A stretch of 34,562 nt of DNA, from positions 371 to 34,932 of the forward strand of contig JAPLKL010000076.1 of NCBI GenBank assembly GCA_026388095.1, given 5' to 3'. Source of the stretch: Elusimicrobiota bacterium. Its GTDB lineage: Bacteria > Elusimicrobiota > Elusimicrobia > UBA1565 > UBA9628. The position numbers were made by a program, and so were the translations under genes. Below, piece after piece: positions 3,747-31,743 of the stretch (its first letter is position 1; every line of letters starts with the position of its first letter). The notes beneath the pieces were generated by a model that worked only from the letters and a program-made list of their open reading frames with translations, was not told where the DNA came from and made no database searches.

Positions 3747-3756
3747 CGCCGCCCGC

Positions 3757-5379
3757 TCAGGGGCAGTCCGCCAAAGCGGCGCAGGGCTCTTGGACGGTCC
3801 GGACGGACTTGAAGCCGAAGTCGTCCCAGGCATAGGCGGCCGCGCGGCGGCGGCCTTCCGGCAGGGCTTCCAGCAGGACCAACTCCTCGCCCCCGGCCGG
3901 CCGCTTGCGGAATTCGAAGTCGAGGAAGGGATGCGCGAACTGCGAGCCCAGCCATTTGGGATAGAGCGCGGTCCCGGAAAGGGAGAAGACGAAGAGCCGG
4001 TTGTCCTCGACCGGATGGTAGCGGGTCTTCTTGCGCAGGCCCACGCAGAGCTCCGGGCGGCCGTCGCCGTCCACGTCCGCCAGCGCGAGCTTCCAGACCT
4101 TGTAGCGATGCCGGTCCAGGGCCGGCCTGCCGAACCGGCCCGCCAGCACCGGGACCACCACCAGCTGCCCCTCTTCCTCGCCCGGCGCGCCCAACACCCC
4201 GTAGAGCCTGGCGGAGCCCGAGCTGACCAAGACCTCGGCCAGCCGCAGCTCTTTGCCGCCGGGGAAGCTCAGGGAGTCCACGGCCGCTCCTGAGGGCCCG
4301 AGCAGTTCGATCGAAGCGGAGGTGGCCCTGATCGTGCCGTCGGCCGTCGCGGTCTCCAGGATGACGGCCGCGGCGGGCTCCAGCCGGACCCGGCCTCCTG
4401 ACGGCTCCGGCGCGAGCCTCACCCCATAGCCCCGGGAAAGCCTGCGCAGCCTGGCGATGATGGCCCGCGACTCTTCGGCAGTCGCGGGCCGCGGCTGATA
4501 ATGCTCCACGTAGACCGGCGTGAACCCGACGTTGCGGATCCCCCCGCTGTCGAACTCGCAGTCGAACACCAGGCTCTGGGAGCGGCTTTCCTGCTTCTGG
4601 TCGAACAGGAAATTGCCCAGGCTGTAGACGATGTACTTGCCGCGGTAGAGCTCGATGCTCTGCAGGACGTGGGGATGATGCCCGAGCACCAGGTCGGCTC
4701 CCGCGTCTATGAGGCGGTGGGCCTTCTCCACCTGGTTCCAGGTCGGCTCCTCCTGGAACTCCGCGCCCCAATGCTCGGAGACCACCACGAAGTCCGCGGA
4801 CCGGCGCGCGCGCTGGATGCTCGCCACCAGCTCCTCCACGCTCGCCGCGGCCGCGGCCGGACGGTCGGGGAGGCTCACGATCCCCTCCAGGAGCATGTCC
4901 TCATTGGCCAGGAAGGCGAAGGTGAGCCCGCCCTTCTTGACCATGACCGGCTCCTGGGCCTGCTTCTGGTCTGGCCCCGCGCCCAAGGGGACCATCCCGT
5001 GCTTGGCGATGTTGTCCTTGGTCTCCAGCAGGGCCTCGCGGCCCCAGTCGATGGAATGGTTGTTGGCCATGGAGACCAGGTTGAAGCCCGCCAGCCGCAG
5101 GGCCTCAAGGTATGCGGGCTTTGCGTGGAAGCTGTAGTTCTTGGGCAAGGGGCTGCCCGCGGCGGAGGCCGGGCACTCCAGGTTGCAGAAAGCCAGGTCG
5201 TGCCCGCGTATGAGGCCGGAGACGGCGCGCAGCGGCGCCTCGACGCCGTCCCTTTCGATGATCTTGCGCGGCTCGCGGTCGAGCAGCACGTCTCCGACCG
5301 CGCAGAAGCGCACGGGCGCGGCTCGCGTCAGGCCCGCGAGGCCGCAGAGCAGCAGCCCGGCGCACGCCAGCCTGCGCAT
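3757..5379 (-). CDS. CapA-family metallophosphatase-like protein with C-terminal Asp-rich repeat domain
   Basis: A 540-residue protein starting with a signal peptide (MRRLACAGLLLCGLAG). Residues 23 to about 290 carry the CapA/PgsA calcineurin-like fold signature: VGDVLL (Gly29-Asp30), NLECP, MANNHSIDWG (104-113), SEHWGAEF, GHHPH (233-237) and YSLGNFLFD. This family is linked to poly-gamma-glutamate or other capsule synthesis. The C-terminal half is unusual and contains LALADVDGDG with Asp435, Asp437 and Asp439, resembling an FG-GAP/VCBS calcium loop. A longer in-frame extension to 5550 exists, but it is Arg-rich, overlaps the upstream gene and would bury the signal peptide, so the ATG at 5379 was chosen. 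It lies 10 nt after the DUF3160 gene and is probably co-transcribed with it. Confidence 0.8.
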   Translation of the reverse strand: MRRLACAGLLLCGLAGLTRAAPVRFCAVGDVLLDREPRKIIERDGVEAPLRAVSGLIRGHDLAFCNLECPASAAGSPLPKNYSFHAKPAYLEALRLAGFNLVSMANNHSIDWGREALLETKDNIAKHGMVPLGAGPDQKQAQEPVMVKKGGLTFAFLANEDMLLEGIVSLPDRPAAAAASVEELVASIQRARRSADFVVVSEHWGAEFQEEPTWNQVEKAHRLIDAGADLVLGHHPHVLQSIELYRGKYIVYSLGNFLFDQKQESRSQSLVFDCEFDSGGIRNVGFTPVYVEHYQPRPATAEESRAIIARLRRLSRGYGVRLAPEPSGGRVRLEPAAAVILETATADGTIRATSASIELLGPSGAAVDSLSFPGGKELRLAEVLVSSGSARLYGVLGAPGEEEGQLVVVPVLAGRFGRPALDRHRYKVWKLALADVDGDGRPELCVGLRKKTRYHPVEDNRLFVFSLSGTALYPKWLGSQFAHPFLDFEFRKRPAGGEELVLLEALPEGRRRAAAYAWDDFGFKSVRTVQEPCAALADCP

Positions 5380-5389
5380 GGGCCGCGCC

Positions 5390-7804
5390 CTATGAGCCCG
5401 TGTCGTAATCGAGCGTCTTCCAGCCGGAATCCTTGCCGATGCGCTCGCGCACCACATCGTCATCGACGTAGGCCGGCTTGGGCTGCTCCACCGCCGTGTC
5501 GTTGCAGAACGCGTCCGTCCAGGAATCCCGCGGCGGCGCCTTGCCGGCATCGAGCATGGCCTGCCATTGCTCGTCCGTGAGCCTCTGGGAAAGAGGCCGG
5601 GTGAACTCGTAGTGGGTGAAGGCCGCTCCCCGGGTCAGCTTGAGCCTGCCCTCCAGCTCGACTACAGCGTATATCTCGGCCGCGTCGCCCACAGCTTCCT
5701 CCAAGGCCTCGTCCTGGCCGGTCCGGGTGTGGACATCCGCCACCAAAGCCGCGCGCTGCTTATCATCATCCAGCGGACCCTCCATGGCCATGTCGCCGAT
5801 GGATTTCGTGAGGCTCTGCAGCAGGCCGCCGAACCTGCGGATCTGCTCGTATTCGCCGAGGGTGAGGGGCAGACCGGCGAGCTCCTTGGTGGACACCGCT
5901 TCCAGGAAGGAGATGGTATCGGTCAGCCGGTCGAAGATGGACTTCATATCCCCATCGGGAAGACCGTATTTCTCAAGGCCTTGCTTGTTCTGCTTGAGCA
6001 GGTCCTTGAGCCGGCCGTAGAACTCCAGGTTCGGTTCCACGTAGCCCTTGGGCGGATCCGGTATCCAGGTCAGGCGCAGGTCCTCGTCGCCGCCGCCGCA
6101 TTCGAAGGCGCCGCTCTGCTTGGCGTACAGGATCGTGTCATGGCGCAATTCCGTCCAGCTCCCCAGCACGGTCTGCAGGCTCTTGGCCGGGTAGGCCTCG
6201 CTGCGCATGAAGAACGGGTACGGCGCCGAGAGCCTCGACACCAGCAAGGGCTTGAGGGTCCACAGCCAGCCGTAGTAGAGGTTCTGCCGCCAGTCCTCGG
6301 GCTTCAAGCCCGCGAAGAGCGCTTGGGTCTTCTTGAGCTCCTCGGGATAGGCCGGCCACTGCGCCCAGGTGTCCTTGTACCGGTCCTGCATCAGATCGGC
6401 CGCCAGCTCGCTGCCCAAGCCGGCCATGACGTCGAGCGCTTTGGGCATGGGACGGCTCATGTTGGTGAGCCGAGTGAAGATATCGGAGTCCGGGATGTAG
6501 CGCTGGCCCATGAACTTGAAGAGGACCAGCTTCTGCGCGGAGCCGGGGGCCAGCGAGCGGAGCTGGTCGATCTGGGCCAACTCCTCGGCGGCCTTGGCGA
6601 GCTTCTGGCGCATGTCCGCGAGCCTGGCCGGGTCGTGGAACTGGCCCCAGCCCGCGCCCGCGAAAGCCTGCGGGAGCGCCTTGAGGTACTGCTCCGGGCC
6701 GAGCTCGTCGGAGAGGCCGGCGTAGAAAGCCGTGGGCTCATACACCGCGCGCCAGAGCTCGATGAGGGGCTTCTCCCGGGATCTCATGTTCTGGAGCTGG
6801 TAGGCGATGAGCAGGCTCTGGGCCAGGCCCGTGTCGTCGTTGATGGGCAGGCCGTAGGTCCCGAACCACATCATGGCCTGGAAATAGGCCGTGAGCTCCT
6901 TGCTGCGGGTGTAGTGCCCCCTGGGGGTGAACTGCGAGTAGTCCACCCTGAGCGCCGGGTCGGACTTGAGGATGAGCGGGGAGTCCAGGCCTTGGTGCTT
7001 CTCGCAGCGGGCCGCCTCCTCGAGCACCAGCGCCTTGACCTCCGGGGCCACGGCGCCGGCGTCCTGGCCCTGGAGGAAATACAGGGGGACGCTGAAATAA
7101 GCCATGTTCCGGCGCGCCGCTTCCTTGAGGGCGGGGTCCTTGGTCTGGGAGTAGAGCGCGCTGGACTCGCCGAGCATGCGCTGGCAGAGCTCTTTCAAAG
7201 TCTGCGAGAGACGGCCTGCCTCGAGCCGGCGCAGGCTGGCGTCGAAGAACTCGTGATAGACCTGCAGGATGACGTCGGTGGTGACGAGGTTGGGCGCGCC
7301 CGAGTAGTCGTTCTGCTCCAGTATGTTGAAGAGCTGCTTGGACTTGGTGGGCAGGACCAGGAAGCCGTTGGCGGCCAGCAGGCCGGATTGGGCCTCGTTG
7401 AAGGCGGGGAACTGGAACTTGTTGAGCACGTTGCCGAGGGCGACCTTCTCCTTGCCGTTCTCCGTTATGTAGTCGCGCTTGGCCAGCTCTTTTTCCAGCC
7501 TTTCCAGGAGCGCGACGTTCTTGCGCTCCACGGGGGACAGGGACGCCTCGCTGTAGTCCTTCTTCGGCTTATAGCCTTTGCCCATGAAATAGGAGTGGAG
7601 CTCGTAGGTCTTGAAGGGCCGGCCGTGCCTGGCGAAGACCTCGTTGCGCATGAGCCAGAGCTCTTGGAGGGTCTTTCCGGACAGGTCCGATTCGGAGAGG
7701 AGCGCGGCCGCGGCTGCCGGGGTCTTCGTGGGCGCGGGCTCGGCGCAGCGGGCGGGGGAAACCGTCAGGAGTCCAAGGACGAGGGCTGGTAGGATCATGC
7801 GCAT
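5390..7804 (-). CDS. YARHG and DUF3160 domain exported protein
   Basis: An 804-residue protein with a signal peptide (residues 1-20). Residues about 40-103 form a YARHG domain: LSGKTLQELWLMRNEVFARHG (FARHG at 57-61), then the aromatic and basic KGYKPKKDYS and LSPVERKNVALL. The rest matches the DUF3160 family in layout: LVTTDVILQVYHEFFDASLRRLE, a long helical middle, AYFQAMMWFG, and a C-terminal part with GDAAEIYAVVELEGRLKLTRGAAFTHYEF. The function of DUF3160 is not known; the YARHG domain is thought to act extracellularly. The ATG at 7804 was chosen over the TTG at 7813 because it directly begins the signal peptide. It is upstream of, and probably co-transcribed with, the CapA-like gene. Confidence 0.8.
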   Translation of the reverse strand: MRMILPALVLGLLTVSPARCAEPAPTKTPAAAAALLSESDLSGKTLQELWLMRNEVFARHGRPFKTYELHSYFMGKGYKPKKDYSEASLSPVERKNVALLERLEKELAKRDYITENGKEKVALGNVLNKFQFPAFNEAQSGLLAANGFLVLPTKSKQLFNILEQNDYSGAPNLVTTDVILQVYHEFFDASLRRLEAGRLSQTLKELCQRMLGESSALYSQTKDPALKEAARRNMAYFSVPLYFLQGQDAGAVAPEVKALVLEEAARCEKHQGLDSPLILKSDPALRVDYSQFTPRGHYTRSKELTAYFQAMMWFGTYGLPINDDTGLAQSLLIAYQLQNMRSREKPLIELWRAVYEPTAFYAGLSDELGPEQYLKALPQAFAGAGWGQFHDPARLADMRQKLAKAAEELAQIDQLRSLAPGSAQKLVLFKFMGQRYIPDSDIFTRLTNMSRPMPKALDVMAGLGSELAADLMQDRYKDTWAQWPAYPEELKKTQALFAGLKPEDWRQNLYYGWLWTLKPLLVSRLSAPYPFFMRSEAYPAKSLQTVLGSWTELRHDTILYAKQSGAFECGGGDEDLRLTWIPDPPKGYVEPNLEFYGRLKDLLKQNKQGLEKYGLPDGDMKSIFDRLTDTISFLEAVSTKELAGLPLTLGEYEQIRRFGGLLQSLTKSIGDMAMEGPLDDDKQRAALVADVHTRTGQDEALEEAVGDAAEIYAVVELEGRLKLTRGAAFTHYEFTRPLSQRLTDEQWQAMLDAGKAPPRDSWTDAFCNDTAVEQPKPAYVDDDVVRERIGKDSGWKTLDYDTGS

Positions 7805-27555: not shown

Positions 27556-28698
27556 ATGGACCCACTTTTCGAGGAACTGGCCCGGAAGATGGAGGCGTCT
27601 TCCGTGAAGCTGGCCCAGGTCGCCAAGCTGCTCGACCTGCCCAAGCTGCGCAAGAGCGTGGCCGAGCGCGAGGCCGAGGCCGCCGGGCCCGCCTTCTGGC
27701 AGGACTCCAGCCTGGCCAAGAAGAAGTCCAAGGAGCTCAACGACCTCAAGAAGCTCGTGGCCTTCTACGAGAAGGCCGACCGGACCCTGGGCGACCTCAA
27801 GGCCCATCTGGAGCTGGCCAAGGAGGTCGGCGACGTGGGCGAGCTTAAGGAAGTCCAGAAAGGCCTGAGCACCGCCGAGCGCCTGGTCCAGGACATGGAC
27901 GCCCGCCTGAAGCTCTCCGGCCAGTTCGACCACGACGACGCCATCGTCAGCCTGCACGCGGGCGCCGGCGGCACCGAGGCCTGCGACTGGTGCGAGATGC
28001 TCCTGCGCATGTACTCGCGCTGGGCCGAGACCCACGGCTTCGAGCTCGCCATCACCGACATACTCAAGGGCGAGGGGGCGGGGGTGAAATCCGTCACCGC
28101 CTTCGTGCGCGGGGATTGCGCCTATGGCTACCTCAAGAGCGAGATGGGCGTGCACCGCCTGGTGCGCATCTCGCCTTTCGACGCCAACAAGCGCCGCCAC
28201 ACCTCCTTCGCCTCCATGGACGTGCTCCCGGACATCGAGCAGGAGATCGACATCCAGGTCCCGGACTCGGACATCAAGCTCGACACCTTCCGCGCCGGCG
28301 GCCACGGCGGGCAGAACGTTAATAAGGTAGAGACCGCGGTGCGCATCACCCACATCCCCACGGGCATCGTGGTGGGCTGCCAGGTCGAGCGCAGCCAGCT
28401 GCAGAACCGCCTCAACGCCATGAAGCTGCTCAAGGCCAAGCTCTACCAGATCGAGCTCGACAAGAAGCGCTCGGCCCTGGAGCGGCACTACGACGGCATG
28501 GGCGACATCGCCTGGGGCCACCAGATCCGCTCCTACGTCTTCATGCCCTACCAGATGGTCAAGGACCTGCGCACCGGCGAGCAGTCCTCCCAGATCCAGT
28601 CCGTGATGGACGGCGACCTGGACCCCTTCATCCAGGCCTACCTCGGCTGGCAGGCCGCCGGCTGCCCGCCCCGGGTCAAGGACTCCCCGGACGAATAG
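27556..28698 (+). CDS. prfB: Peptide chain release factor 2
   Basis: A 380-residue protein that releases the peptide at UAA and UGA codons. The GGQ motif that works at the peptidyl transferase centre is at 251-253 ([11 protein letters not shown]). The tripeptide that recognises the stop codon is the RF2 type SPF ([16 protein letters not shown]), which separates it from RF1 (PxT). The N-terminal helical domain is complete, with [23 protein letters not shown]. The gene reads in one frame from ATG: the programmed frameshift with an early in-frame UGA found in many bacteria is absent. It starts 9 nt after the lnt stop; no Shine-Dalgarno sequence is visible. Confidence 0.93.
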
Positions 28699-28707
28699 CC
28701 GCAAGTC

Positions 28708-28736
28708 TTGACAAATCGGGGAAGTGGACTTACACT
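28708..28736 (+). promoter_or_regulatory. Sigma70 promoter with terminator-containing leader downstream
   Basis: TTGACA (28708-28713), a 17-nt spacer and TACACT (28731-28736). The expected start near 28743 gives a leader of about 93 nt before the ATG at 28836. Confidence 0.7.
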
Positions 28737-28763
28737 TCCTACATAGGCCGACCCCAGTTGTAC

Positions 28764-28825
28764 CCCGAGGCCTTGTAGCGGCGCGTCGGCTTCTGCCTCG
28801 GGCATAAGCCGGCGCCGTTGTTTTT
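28764..28825 (+). terminator. Candidate attenuator: terminator hairpin interleaved with a second stem
   Basis: Stem B: 28779-28792 pairs with 28806-28817 (12 bp, two-nt bulge; CGGCGC and CGGCTT against AAGCCGGCGCCG), followed by TTGTTTTT (28818-28825), the form of an intrinsic terminator. Stem A: CCCGAGGC (28764-28771) pairs with GCCTCGGG (28795-28802). The arm order is A-B-A'-B', so the two stems exclude each other or form a pseudoknot. The terminator lies just before the CGGAGG ribosome binding site of the gene at 28836, after its promoter. It may also stop read-through from prfB. Confidence 0.6.
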
Positions 28826-28835
28826 CGGAGGCCCT

Positions 28836-30902
28836 ATGAAACGCATCGCACTCTGCCTGGCCGCGCTGTCGCTGTGCTCGCCCCTCTGGGCCGCCGAGGC
28901 CCCTGGCCGGTGCCCCGGCCTGGGCAAGGCTTCGGCCGACGAGCTGAATCAGTGGGCCAATCTCAAAGTGTGCGACCATGCGGTCTGGGCCCTCGTCTAT
29001 TACAGCAACCCGCGCAACGCCGCCGCCAAGAACGCCTATCTGAAGGCCACCAACAAGAGCGCCATCCTGACCGCGGCGTCCACGGTGTTGGGCAAGACGG
29101 ACGCCAAGATGGCGGCGCTCATCGAGGCCGGGGACGCCGTCCTGTCCACCGCGGCGGCTCTGGGCTTGATCACGAAGCTCGACAGCCAGCCCCTGGCCGT
29201 CCACGTGCCGGCTGCGCCGGACAAGGCCAGCGCCGTCCTCACGGCGCAGAAGTTCAAGATCGCCGCGTTCGCGGCCGGAGACCCCCAGGCCGACAAACTC
29301 GACCCCGCGCAGGGCGTGGTGATATTCGGCCACCTGCTCAGCGCCGGGAAGGGCAAGGCCGTGGCCCCGGGCCAGCTGCTCCAGGACTTCAACAAGGCCG
29401 TGGTGGCCCTCAACAACCAGATCTCCAACCTGATCCAGTACAAGGTCTTCAAGGACCTCAAGACGAATCTGAGGCCGGGGGAGACCCCCGCAGTGCCGGC
29501 GTCTTGGGCGGCTTCCATGGAGAAGTCCCAGAAGCTGGCCGAGGACCTCGCCGGCAAGGCCGAGCCCGCCGGCGACTTCCTCAAGGCCCTCCAGAACATC
29601 TCCGACATGGACATGGACAAGGCCGACAACATCAAGGACCTGCCCAAGAAGCCCATCATGAGCTTCCTGGACCCGGTCATGCGCAACGCCCTGCGCGTGC
29701 AGTCGCTCCAGGTGGGCAAGGCTTTCGAGCAGGCCAAGCTGTCCCTGAAGGGGAAGACGGTCGGCGAAGCCACCGAGGCCCTTAAGAAGAAGACCGAAGA
29801 CCGCCGCGCGGAAGAGGCCCGGCAGGCGAAGATCAGCGCCAACACCACGGCCATAGCCGAGAAGATGGCGGGCCTGCTCAACGAGCAGCGGACCGCCGGC
29901 GCGCTCCCGGACGCCTCGGGCCCGATCACGGTGACGGCGGGGCCCCAGGGCACTGACAAGAACCAGACGGTGTTCACCGCTACGGACGGGAAGGGCACCA
30001 AGGCGGTGCTCAAGACCGTCCCGACCACGGATATCGAGAAGGAGGCGACCCCGGCCGCGGCCGCGGAGAAGCTCGGCACGGTGGCGGCCGCGGACATCCT
30101 CAACGGGAACTTCCGCGCCGCCCGCGCGACGGCTCTCAAGGAGGCCCTGACGCCGGAACTGGCGCCGGGCGCCGACGGCAAGGTCCCGCCTCCCGCGCTC
30201 CCCAAGGGCGGCGTGCTGGGGCCCGGCGGCATGATGGGCGGCGAACCCGGTTGCGATGCGGCCGGGGGCGACTCCCTGGCCGATTACAAGAAGCGCCTGG
30301 CTGAGGACGCCAAGAAGAAGAGCGCGCAGACCAGCGCCGCCCGGCAGAAGCTGGAGGCGGGCTACGACCAGAAGTACCGGGAGATCATGGACAACAAGAT
30401 CATGACCGAGCCCGAGAGGACCGCGGCCTTGGCCGAGCTCGACAAGCCCTATCCCGCGGCGTCCCAGGCCTTGTCCACGCAGGAGTCCGACAATCAGGTG
30501 GCCCAGTTCGAGGCGTCCATGCGGGCCGAGAGGCAGCTGCGCGCGCAGACCGCCCAGCGCGTCGAGACGGTCCGCGACTCCTGGCAGAAGGACGTGAAGT
30601 TGGCCCAGAAGTATTACTCGGGAGGCGAGAACCTCGCGCAGTTCCTGACCCCGGCGCTGGTCAAGGCCTACTTCAACGAGCAGTGGGCCGCGGGGAGCTC
30701 AAAATACGATGACAACATGACCGCCGCCGTCGGCCAGGTCAAGTTCAACAACCCCGCCTCGGTCGACGAGTTCATGGGCAAACACCTGGCGGGCTGGTGC
30801 AAGGACCGGAAGGTGGTCAACGCTCCGGCCACCGCCACGGACCTGAAGCGCGCGGCCGAGCTGCGGCGGCAGGCCCTGTTGAAGCCGGCGCCGGCGAAGT
30901 AG
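28836..30902 (+). CDS. Large exported protein of unknown function
   Basis: A 688-residue protein with a signal peptide (MKRIALCLAALSLCSPLWAA) and no family that I recognise. The ATG at 28836 is preferred to an upstream in-frame ATG at 28818 because GGAG lies 5 nt before it and the signal peptide begins there. The mature chain is Ala/Lys-rich and mostly helical, with long charged stretches (EALKKKTEDRRAEEARQAKI, ADYKKRLAEDAKKKSAQ). A Gly-rich hinge, GGVLGPGGMMGG, falls near residues 460-471. No catalytic motif is visible. Expression is probably controlled by the leader hairpins. The RDD gene starts 10 nt after its stop. Confidence 0.7.
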   Translation: MKRIALCLAALSLCSPLWAAEAPGRCPGLGKASADELNQWANLKVCDHAVWALVYYSNPRNAAAKNAYLKATNKSAILTAASTVLGKTDAKMAALIEAGDAVLSTAAALGLITKLDSQPLAVHVPAAPDKASAVLTAQKFKIAAFAAGDPQADKLDPAQGVVIFGHLLSAGKGKAVAPGQLLQDFNKAVVALNNQISNLIQYKVFKDLKTNLRPGETPAVPASWAASMEKSQKLAEDLAGKAEPAGDFLKALQNISDMDMDKADNIKDLPKKPIMSFLDPVMRNALRVQSLQVGKAFEQAKLSLKGKTVGEATEALKKKTEDRRAEEARQAKISANTTAIAEKMAGLLNEQRTAGALPDASGPITVTAGPQGTDKNQTVFTATDGKGTKAVLKTVPTTDIEKEATPAAAAEKLGTVAAADILNGNFRAARATALKEALTPELAPGADGKVPPPALPKGGVLGPGGMMGGEPGCDAAGGDSLADYKKRLAEDAKKKSAQTSAARQKLEAGYDQKYREIMDNKIMTEPERTAALAELDKPYPAASQALSTQESDNQVAQFEASMRAERQLRAQTAQRVETVRDSWQKDVKLAQKYYSGGENLAQFLTPALVKAYFNEQWAAGSSKYDDNMTAAVGQVKFNNPASVDEFMGKHLAGWCKDRKVVNAPATATDLKRAAELRRQALLKPAPAK

Positions 30903-30912
30903 AGGAGCGGCG

Positions 30913-31743
30913 ATGGAAGAGTCCGTCCCGGAAGAGGCGCAGGAGCCGTCCGAAGTCGGCGCCGAGCCGCAGGAGTTGGCGGCTTTCAGCGAGCGGGTGG
31001 TGGCCTTCAGCCTGGACGTCGCCCTGTTCGTGGCCTGCTACTACGTCTCCTTGGCCCTGGTGTTCCGGAAGCAGCCGGTGGCCTTGAACCCCTACACCGG
31101 CCAATGGTCCCTGCTGTGGACCGGCTTCTTCCTCCTCTATCAGGCCTATCTCTCCTGCGAGGGGCGCCGGTCCTTGGGCAAGGCCGCGCTGGGCATCCGC
31201 GTGGTCGACCGCTCAGGCGAGGCTCTGGGGCTGGGCGCGGCGGCGCTGCGCTCCGCGCTCTATGTGGCGAGCTCGATCATGAACCTGGGCTTCCTGTGGG
31301 CGCTCTTCAATCCGGCGCGGCGCTGCTGGCACGACCTGGCGGTGGGAAGCCTGGTGGTCAGGGACACCGCGAGGCCGGGGGGCGCCCGTCCCCTGGTCCG
31401 GCTGGCGGCCGCCGGCTGCATCGCGGTCTTCCTGGGCGTGGTGGCCTGGAAGCACGTCATCGGGCCCCGCTACCAGCGCAACATGGACATCGCCTACGCG
31501 CGCGTGGGGGTCATGGAGATCGCCAAGCTCGAGACCATCCATCACCGCAAGTTCGGCGTGTACGCCAAGGACCTCCTGGCGCTGGCCCCGCTCTCCGGGG
31601 CTCCGGATGCCTTCATGCGGGACATGGCGAACCTCCTGGACGTGGATTCCGGCATCCGCATCGAGGCGGATGCCAAGGGCTACACGATCACGGCGCGGGC
31701 GACCGACGACCGCAAGACCCTGATCATCCAGAAGGGATCCTAG
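30913..31743 (+). CDS. RDD-family membrane protein with a C-terminal pilin-like domain
   Basis: A 276-residue protein, ATG 5 nt after an AGGAG. Residues about 22-150 are an RDD domain: ERVVAFSLDVALFVACYYVSL, then YLSCEGRRSLGKAALGIRVVDRSGEAL, and NPARRCWHDLAVGSLVV, with three hydrophobic segments. A fourth (VRLAAAGCIAVFLGVVAWKHV, about 157-178) leads to a C-terminal part that resembles the mature end of type IV pilin-like proteins: ARVGVMEIAKLETIHHRKFGVYAKDLLALAPL, with the Y/F...G.Y...L..L pattern, then short beta strands ending in TLIIQKG. RDD proteins are poorly understood membrane proteins; the added pilin-like part would be periplasmic. Function is unknown. Confidence 0.7.
   Translation: MEESVPEEAQEPSEVGAEPQELAAFSERVVAFSLDVALFVACYYVSLALVFRKQPVALNPYTGQWSLLWTGFFLLYQAYLSCEGRRSLGKAALGIRVVDRSGEALGLGAAALRSALYVASSIMNLGFLWALFNPARRCWHDLAVGSLVVRDTARPGGARPLVRLAAAGCIAVFLGVVAWKHVIGPRYQRNMDIAYARVGVMEIAKLETIHHRKFGVYAKDLLALAPLSGAPDAFMRDMANLLDVDSGIRIEADAKGYTITARATDDRKTLIIQKGS

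Follow-up and report, generated by a model that had tools for sequence, protein, structure and literature searches.

What do the overlapping hairpins do that lie between prfB and an operon for an exported protein and an RDD-family membrane protein? The question arises in a window of 34,562 nucleotides, meaning the whole stretch of DNA that was analysed, from an Elusimicrobiota genome of 4.6 Mb that is 98% complete. A first-pass annotation, made from the letters of this DNA, had described pairing arms in the order A-B-A'-B', with a terminator in the leader of the exported-protein gene, and had compared the arrangement to attenuators and riboswitch expression platforms.

Layout of the leader

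All features lie on the plus strand. The near-consensus promoter reported ahead of the hairpins is confirmed by promoter search as TTGACA-17-TACACT (28708-28736), the sole promoter-like match in 28600-29000, where shuffles give 0.0; it is conserved in 10/10 copies of the leader, with TACAAT in G036. The leader RNA (28743-28835) is delimited from the sequence and from matches of the models R1, R2 and R3 described below, and runs from the predicted transcription start, placed 7 nt past the -10 box, to the base before the ATG at 28836.

At the predicted start of the transcript stands a hairpin, P1, which the first-pass annotation overlooked. Its 5' arm AGGCC (28745-28749), recovered by RNAalifold both on alignment A6 and on A7, which was aligned by sequence only, pairs with GGCCU (28769-28773), identified by RNAalifold and pair counts, and its loop contains ACCCC (28751-28755), present in 9/10 copies. 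Arm A, CCCGAGGC (28764-28771), shares its last three bases with the P1 3' arm. Arm B (28779-28792) forms the 5' side of a terminator-like hairpin, for which the window copy offers alternative registers, and pairs with arm B' (28806-28817) on the 3' side; arm A', GCCTCGGG (28795-28802), lies in the loop of this hairpin B. In the window, A and A' form 8 perfect pairs, and B and B' form 12 pairs with a 2-nt bulge. The T tract TTGTTTTT (28818-28825), which corresponds to a U-rich stretch after the hairpin in most copies, is followed by CGGAGG (28826-28831), including the Shine-Dalgarno sequence GGAGG (28827-28831).

The four arms, the T tract, the ribosome binding site and the promoter were thus all found where they had been annotated. 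The 2-nt gap claimed between the terminator and CGGAGG does not exist, as the T tract directly adjoins it. The proposal that either stem A or the terminator forms holds in that the two are mutually exclusive, but not by base overlap, since A and B share 0 nt; A:A' excludes hairpin B through topology, because A' lies in the B loop, and through P1.

Folding of the single sequence gives a modest signal. Set against dinucleotide shuffles, the window transcript as far as the T tract has the better fold in 198/200 cases (z -2.45) and that as far as the ATG in 199/200 (z -2.32), while the wider stretch 28740-28850 reaches a z of only -1.33, and a generic terminator scan of the window leaves hairpin B unflagged. 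This signal alone is insufficient to settle whether the hairpins are real; the decisive evidence, drawn from sequence comparison, is their conservation across genomes.

Distribution of the leader

Ten copies of the leader were identified in nine genomes, or eight without the window's own, which belong to three families within one order of Elusimicrobia: one copy each in the window genome (G000), G001, G002, G016, G017, G022, G036 and G041, and two in G003 (a and b). Model R1, built from the window and G001 copies, was searched in 44 family genomes and matched G017, from another genus (E 6.4e-11), G002 (1.8e-9) and G003 (1.7e-5 and 0.0115), and these hits are independent of the model; the matches in G002 and G003 stand ahead of non-orthologous genes. 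Model R2, which uses sequence only, gave the second G003 copy an E-value of 8.3e-22, having been built including that copy, and added copies in G022, G016, G041 and G036. Because hits of earlier models went into R2 and R3, the E-values that these two give for such copies lack independence. Matches of R2 and R3 with E-values above about 1e-5, mostly to the promoter alone, were left out of the count. When R1 was searched, with filters off, against loci stripped of the promoter, 10/10 copies were recovered.

R3 found no additional full copy across 341 genomes of the phylum. A pattern scan of 84,980 genomes returned 35 hits, with the leader context only in four Elusimicrobia records that the models had already found and the rest attributable to chance, as were all three hits in viral contigs. 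In G020 (L144, near 7436-7554), a weakly matching stretch that includes a GCGCATCGGTT-type hairpin lies ahead of an exported ankyrin-repeat-like protein; it is a possible divergent copy and was not counted.

In a comparison with a same-genus relative, whose exported-protein ortholog is 66% identical, the leader shows 85% identity over 94 columns and the coding sequence of the exported-protein gene 74%.

Genes downstream of the leader

Downstream of the window leader lie the gene for the exported protein of 688 aa (28836-30902) and, as the conserved second gene of the operon, that for the RDD-family membrane protein (30913-31743), assigned by Pfam and gene order. Six of the ten copies (window, G001, G017, G022, G016 and G041) precede orthologs of this operon, whose exported protein measures about 700 aa, and the order of exported-protein gene and RDD gene is common to G001, G017, G022, G016, G041 and G032. 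The window protein has no Pfam domain above the cut-off and no relative in the PDB, and its predicted fold, with a mean pLDDT of 40.8, is uninterpretable. It evolves fast, with about 20% identity between genera, yet its operon with the RDD gene is conserved.

The other four copies precede different exported proteins. The G003b target carries an FGE-sulfatase domain (E 1.5e-48), the G002 target shows a weak YadA-head repeat match under the cut-off, and a domain search returned no domain for the targets of G003a and G036. Orthologs in genus g9 keep the same promoter with a very short leader that lacks the element, which makes the leader element a separable module.

Several other loci resemble the leader in part. 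In G003:C69, near 3754-3794 (L146), a relic of the promoter with CATAGGCCGATCCC follows prfB, and the whole exported-protein/RDD operon is absent. At G003:C58:18421-18476 (L117), the same promoter and CATAGGCCGACCCCAG are followed immediately by the start codon, as in a truncated leader, and the N-terminus of the exported protein (SVPxxW) resembles those of the G002 and G003b targets. In G032 (L145, 2322-2436), another leader stands ahead of the orthologous operon: near its 5' end it carries GCCGACCCC, the perfect complement of GGGGTCGGC, which is located directly ahead of the ribosome binding site. Loci L112, L088 and L092 (in G057, G031 and G030) have the same promoter type, then GGAGGCCNACCCC and a start codon, and there AGGCCNACCCC coincides with the Shine-Dalgarno sequence.

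Conservation and covariation of the helices

Three helices emerge from the comparison: P1, hairpin B, and A:A', which links the P1 loop region to the B loop. Conservation and covariation of the stems in relatives had been named as the check on the original annotation, and both are present. RNAalifold finds P1 without being supplied with it and, on the sequence-only alignment, recovers P1 together with outer B, there without a favourable covariation term for either. Pair counts were made with hand-fitted arms taken as verbatim pieces of the sequences; since such fitting favours structure and the copies are related, the figures that follow are supportive and are not probabilities. Hairpin B has 94.4% of its cells paired and 18 two-sided changes, with a covariation of 0.627 against 0.230 in shuffled alignments (0/500 as high), and compensatory changes strongly support it. 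A:A' has 90.3% paired and five two-sided changes, with a covariation of 0.228 against 0.141 (0/500); its compensatory changes are A-U to G-C in G022 and G016 and G-C to C-G in G041. P1 has 88.6% paired and a covariation of 0.187 against 0.106, a value reached by 16/500 shuffles. All three helices exceed every slid register in both cells paired and covariation score.

The support for A:A' thus appears real and weaker than that for B. In a cross test, the mean best match of arm A was 7.07 to its own loop and 6.76 to the loops of other copies. Compared with shuffled loops, G017, G022 and G016 each show a convincing A:A' on their own, the window and G003a a marginal one, and G002 none. P1 draws its support mostly from sequence conservation: its sequence is near-invariant, every copy has it at the start site, and its loop is strictly conserved.

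Order of folding and terminator features

Folding was followed step by step by equilibrium calculation, which describes neither kinetics nor pseudoknots. As the transcript lengthens, P1 is followed by A:A' and then by P1 together with hairpin B; early P1 is weak in G003b. The computed probability of A:A' reaches at least 0.5, before B' is complete, in 6/9 copies that possess A' (window, G017, G003b, G022, G041 and G036), and drops to 0.00 with the completion of B' in all copies but G003b, where B is weak. In G001, other local pairings are preferred to A:A', and G002 lacks A'. Hairpin B alone has a folding energy of -24.5 kcal/mol in the window and -23.4 kcal/mol in G001; the low scores of the outer B pairs in these two copies reflect only the use of a different register within that hairpin.

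At least five U residues occur in the 8 nt 3' of the hairpin in 7/10 copies, compared with 0.75% of windows in the GC-rich sequence of the analysed stretch. A G+C-rich hairpin is followed directly by a U tract in the window, G001, G017, G002 and G003a, with G016 intermediate; G022, G041 and G036 combine a strong hairpin with a weak or displaced U tract, and G003b has a weak hairpin. The distance from the end of hairpin B to the start codon is 16-23 nt outside G036, whose ATG lies far downstream.

A candidate transcription attenuator

A:A' and P1 plus hairpin B would be natural, mutually exclusive alternatives, because A overlaps the P1 3' arm and B encloses A'. The best explanation is that the leader is a cis-acting transcription attenuator, terminating by default and answering to a putative factor or ligand, a proposition for and against which we find the balance about even. 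Transcription from the strong promoter would first produce P1 at the 5' end. On emergence of A', A:A' would displace P1 and enclose arm B within its own loop; once B' is out, an unstabilised A:A' would refold into P1 and hairpin B, and the U tract after hairpin B would stop transcription just ahead of the Shine-Dalgarno sequence. A trans-acting factor or ligand that stabilises A:A', or that opens P1 through its sequence-conserved loop, would permit read-through; if it stabilised P1 instead, transcription would be forced to stop. The earlier comparison with an attenuator or expression platform therefore stands as regards the conserved leader, the covarying B, the mostly U-rich 3' side, the competing A:A' and the switch-like order of folding, while termination, A:A' as the read-through state, and a ligand are what we infer from them. 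Weighing against the attenuator are the small number (ten) and the relatedness of the copies, the weak or displaced T tract in 3/10 (G041, G036 and G022), the missing A' of G002, the weak B of G003b, the other local pairings preferred in G001, the remote ATG of G036, the hand fitting of the arms behind the pair counts, and the absence of a favourable covariation term on the sequence-only alignment.

A more specific reading is rather unlikely: that the leader belongs to an orphan class of riboswitch or protein-sensing RNA peculiar to Elusimicrobiota, with the loop of the 5' hairpin pairing with that of the terminator hairpin, as a kissing contact or pseudoknot, and coordinating the synthesis of a regulon of exported proteins. 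A fixed H-pseudoknot in which every A and B pair forms was rejected, as in several copies a loop of only about 3-5 nt separates A' from B'; A:A' and B may coexist in part through a kissing contact.

Alternative explanations

The 5' UTR of ompA has a hairpin at its 5' end and a second hairpin ahead of the Shine-Dalgarno sequence. A leader of this type, with its second hairpin just before a U-rich single-stranded stretch and a strong Shine-Dalgarno sequence, would stabilise the mRNA and enhance its translation, keeping abundant mRNAs for exported proteins long-lived without any switching, and for the present element it is an explanation of limited likelihood and one of the two main rivals. The two-hairpin arrangement on an exported-protein mRNA, the only aspect compared, is shared, and the position of P1 at the predicted transcription start, the 16-23 nt spacing of hairpin B outside G036, the strong promoter, the exported targets and the retention of the U-rich stretch even where it is detached from the hairpin (G022) all agree with it. 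The ompA mRNA is stabilised by its own 5' UTR, according to literature cited in PMC7509114. In the present leader, however, a conserved competing pairing connects the two hairpins, and a U tract comes after the second; a stabiliser leaves unexplained both the compensatory changes in A:A' and the strict conservation of the P1 loop sequence, and orthologs in a sister genus lack the leader. Given a helix that competes and a P1 loop that is invariant, we infer that a switch is favoured over a stabiliser.

A switch could also act on translation, with the P1 arms or nearby C-rich segments pairing with or freeing the Shine-Dalgarno sequence and the U tract serving only as a spacer; this is the other main rival, which we regard as improbable. 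The full-length fold of the window does pair GGCCUU (28769-28774, in the P1 3' arm region) with GAGGCC (28828-28833) at the Shine-Dalgarno sequence, and P1 loses probability in the full-length leaders of the window, G002, G022 and G041, but the pairing is not conserved, P1 persists in the full-length folds of G017, G003a and G016, and the start codon of G036 is distant from the element. Added translational control in the window copy, through pairing of the P1 3' arm with the Shine-Dalgarno sequence, is possible. Still less can be said for a DNA operator, in which the TAGGCC...GGCCTA inverted repeat just 3' of the promoter would bind a repressor and hairpin B would be incidental: a near-invariant P1 at the start site of every copy suits this very improbable reading, but the distance between half-sites varies from 16 to 21 nt, ill-suited to a fixed DNA-binding dimer, and hairpin B, beyond the repeat, covaries strongly. 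Finally, a fold only modestly better than shuffles and the silent terminator scan might suggest an ordinary fortuitous hairpin in GC-rich DNA, an idea that ten homologous copies with compensatory changes, ahead of several gene families, refute and leave scarcely credible.

Relation to known regulatory RNAs

The first-pass annotation had recognised no known riboswitch, and Rfam 15, at gathering and at permissive E-values, gave no match for the window and eight other copies, the only weak hit over a leader having an E of 0.59, far under its gathering score. Like leaders controlled by CsrA, most copies have GGA or GGGA in a hairpin loop and at the Shine-Dalgarno sequence, but the window loop has GGGC, not GGGA, and a CsrA gene was detected in 0/12 genomes, with the positive control detected in three known genomes, so this class is disfavoured. 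A search for ANTAR proteins gave 0/12 genomes, but its positive control was silent everywhere, which makes the zero uninformative. A leader-peptide attenuator was also set aside, as inspection of the ten leaders by eye revealed no conserved short frame; the frame ATG-TAT-CCC-GAG-GCC-TAG of G017 lacks its start codon in G001, G002, G016 and G022.

The leader shares with transcription attenuators and terminator-type riboswitch platforms a promoter, a short leader, competing helices, and a terminator-like hairpin with a U tract, followed by the ribosome binding site. It differs in having no conserved leader peptide and no recognised aptamer or factor, in the non-uniform U tract, and in that sequence conservation centres on a 5' hairpin which shares bases of its 3' arm with the competing helix. 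In orphan RNA motifs such as crcB and pfl, described in PMC2864571, terminators overlap the conserved motif; the present leader resembles them as a conserved small RNA of the 5' UTR that comparative genomics brought to light and that overlaps a predicted terminator, but in the genomes searched it is confined to one order of Elusimicrobiota, and its targets are exported proteins of different families, not metabolic genes. A literature search, confined to freely accessible papers without their supplements, found no report of an Elusimicrobiota leader RNA. The kind of element, an attenuator-like cis-regulatory leader, is known, and the leader RNA itself appears undescribed.

The leader is an RNA element outside Rfam, in a phylum with little RNA biology. 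It joins several unrelated exported proteins of unknown function in one candidate regulon, and these target genes give no hint of a ligand. If the leader senses something, the ligand or factor would tell when these bacteria deploy their surface proteins.
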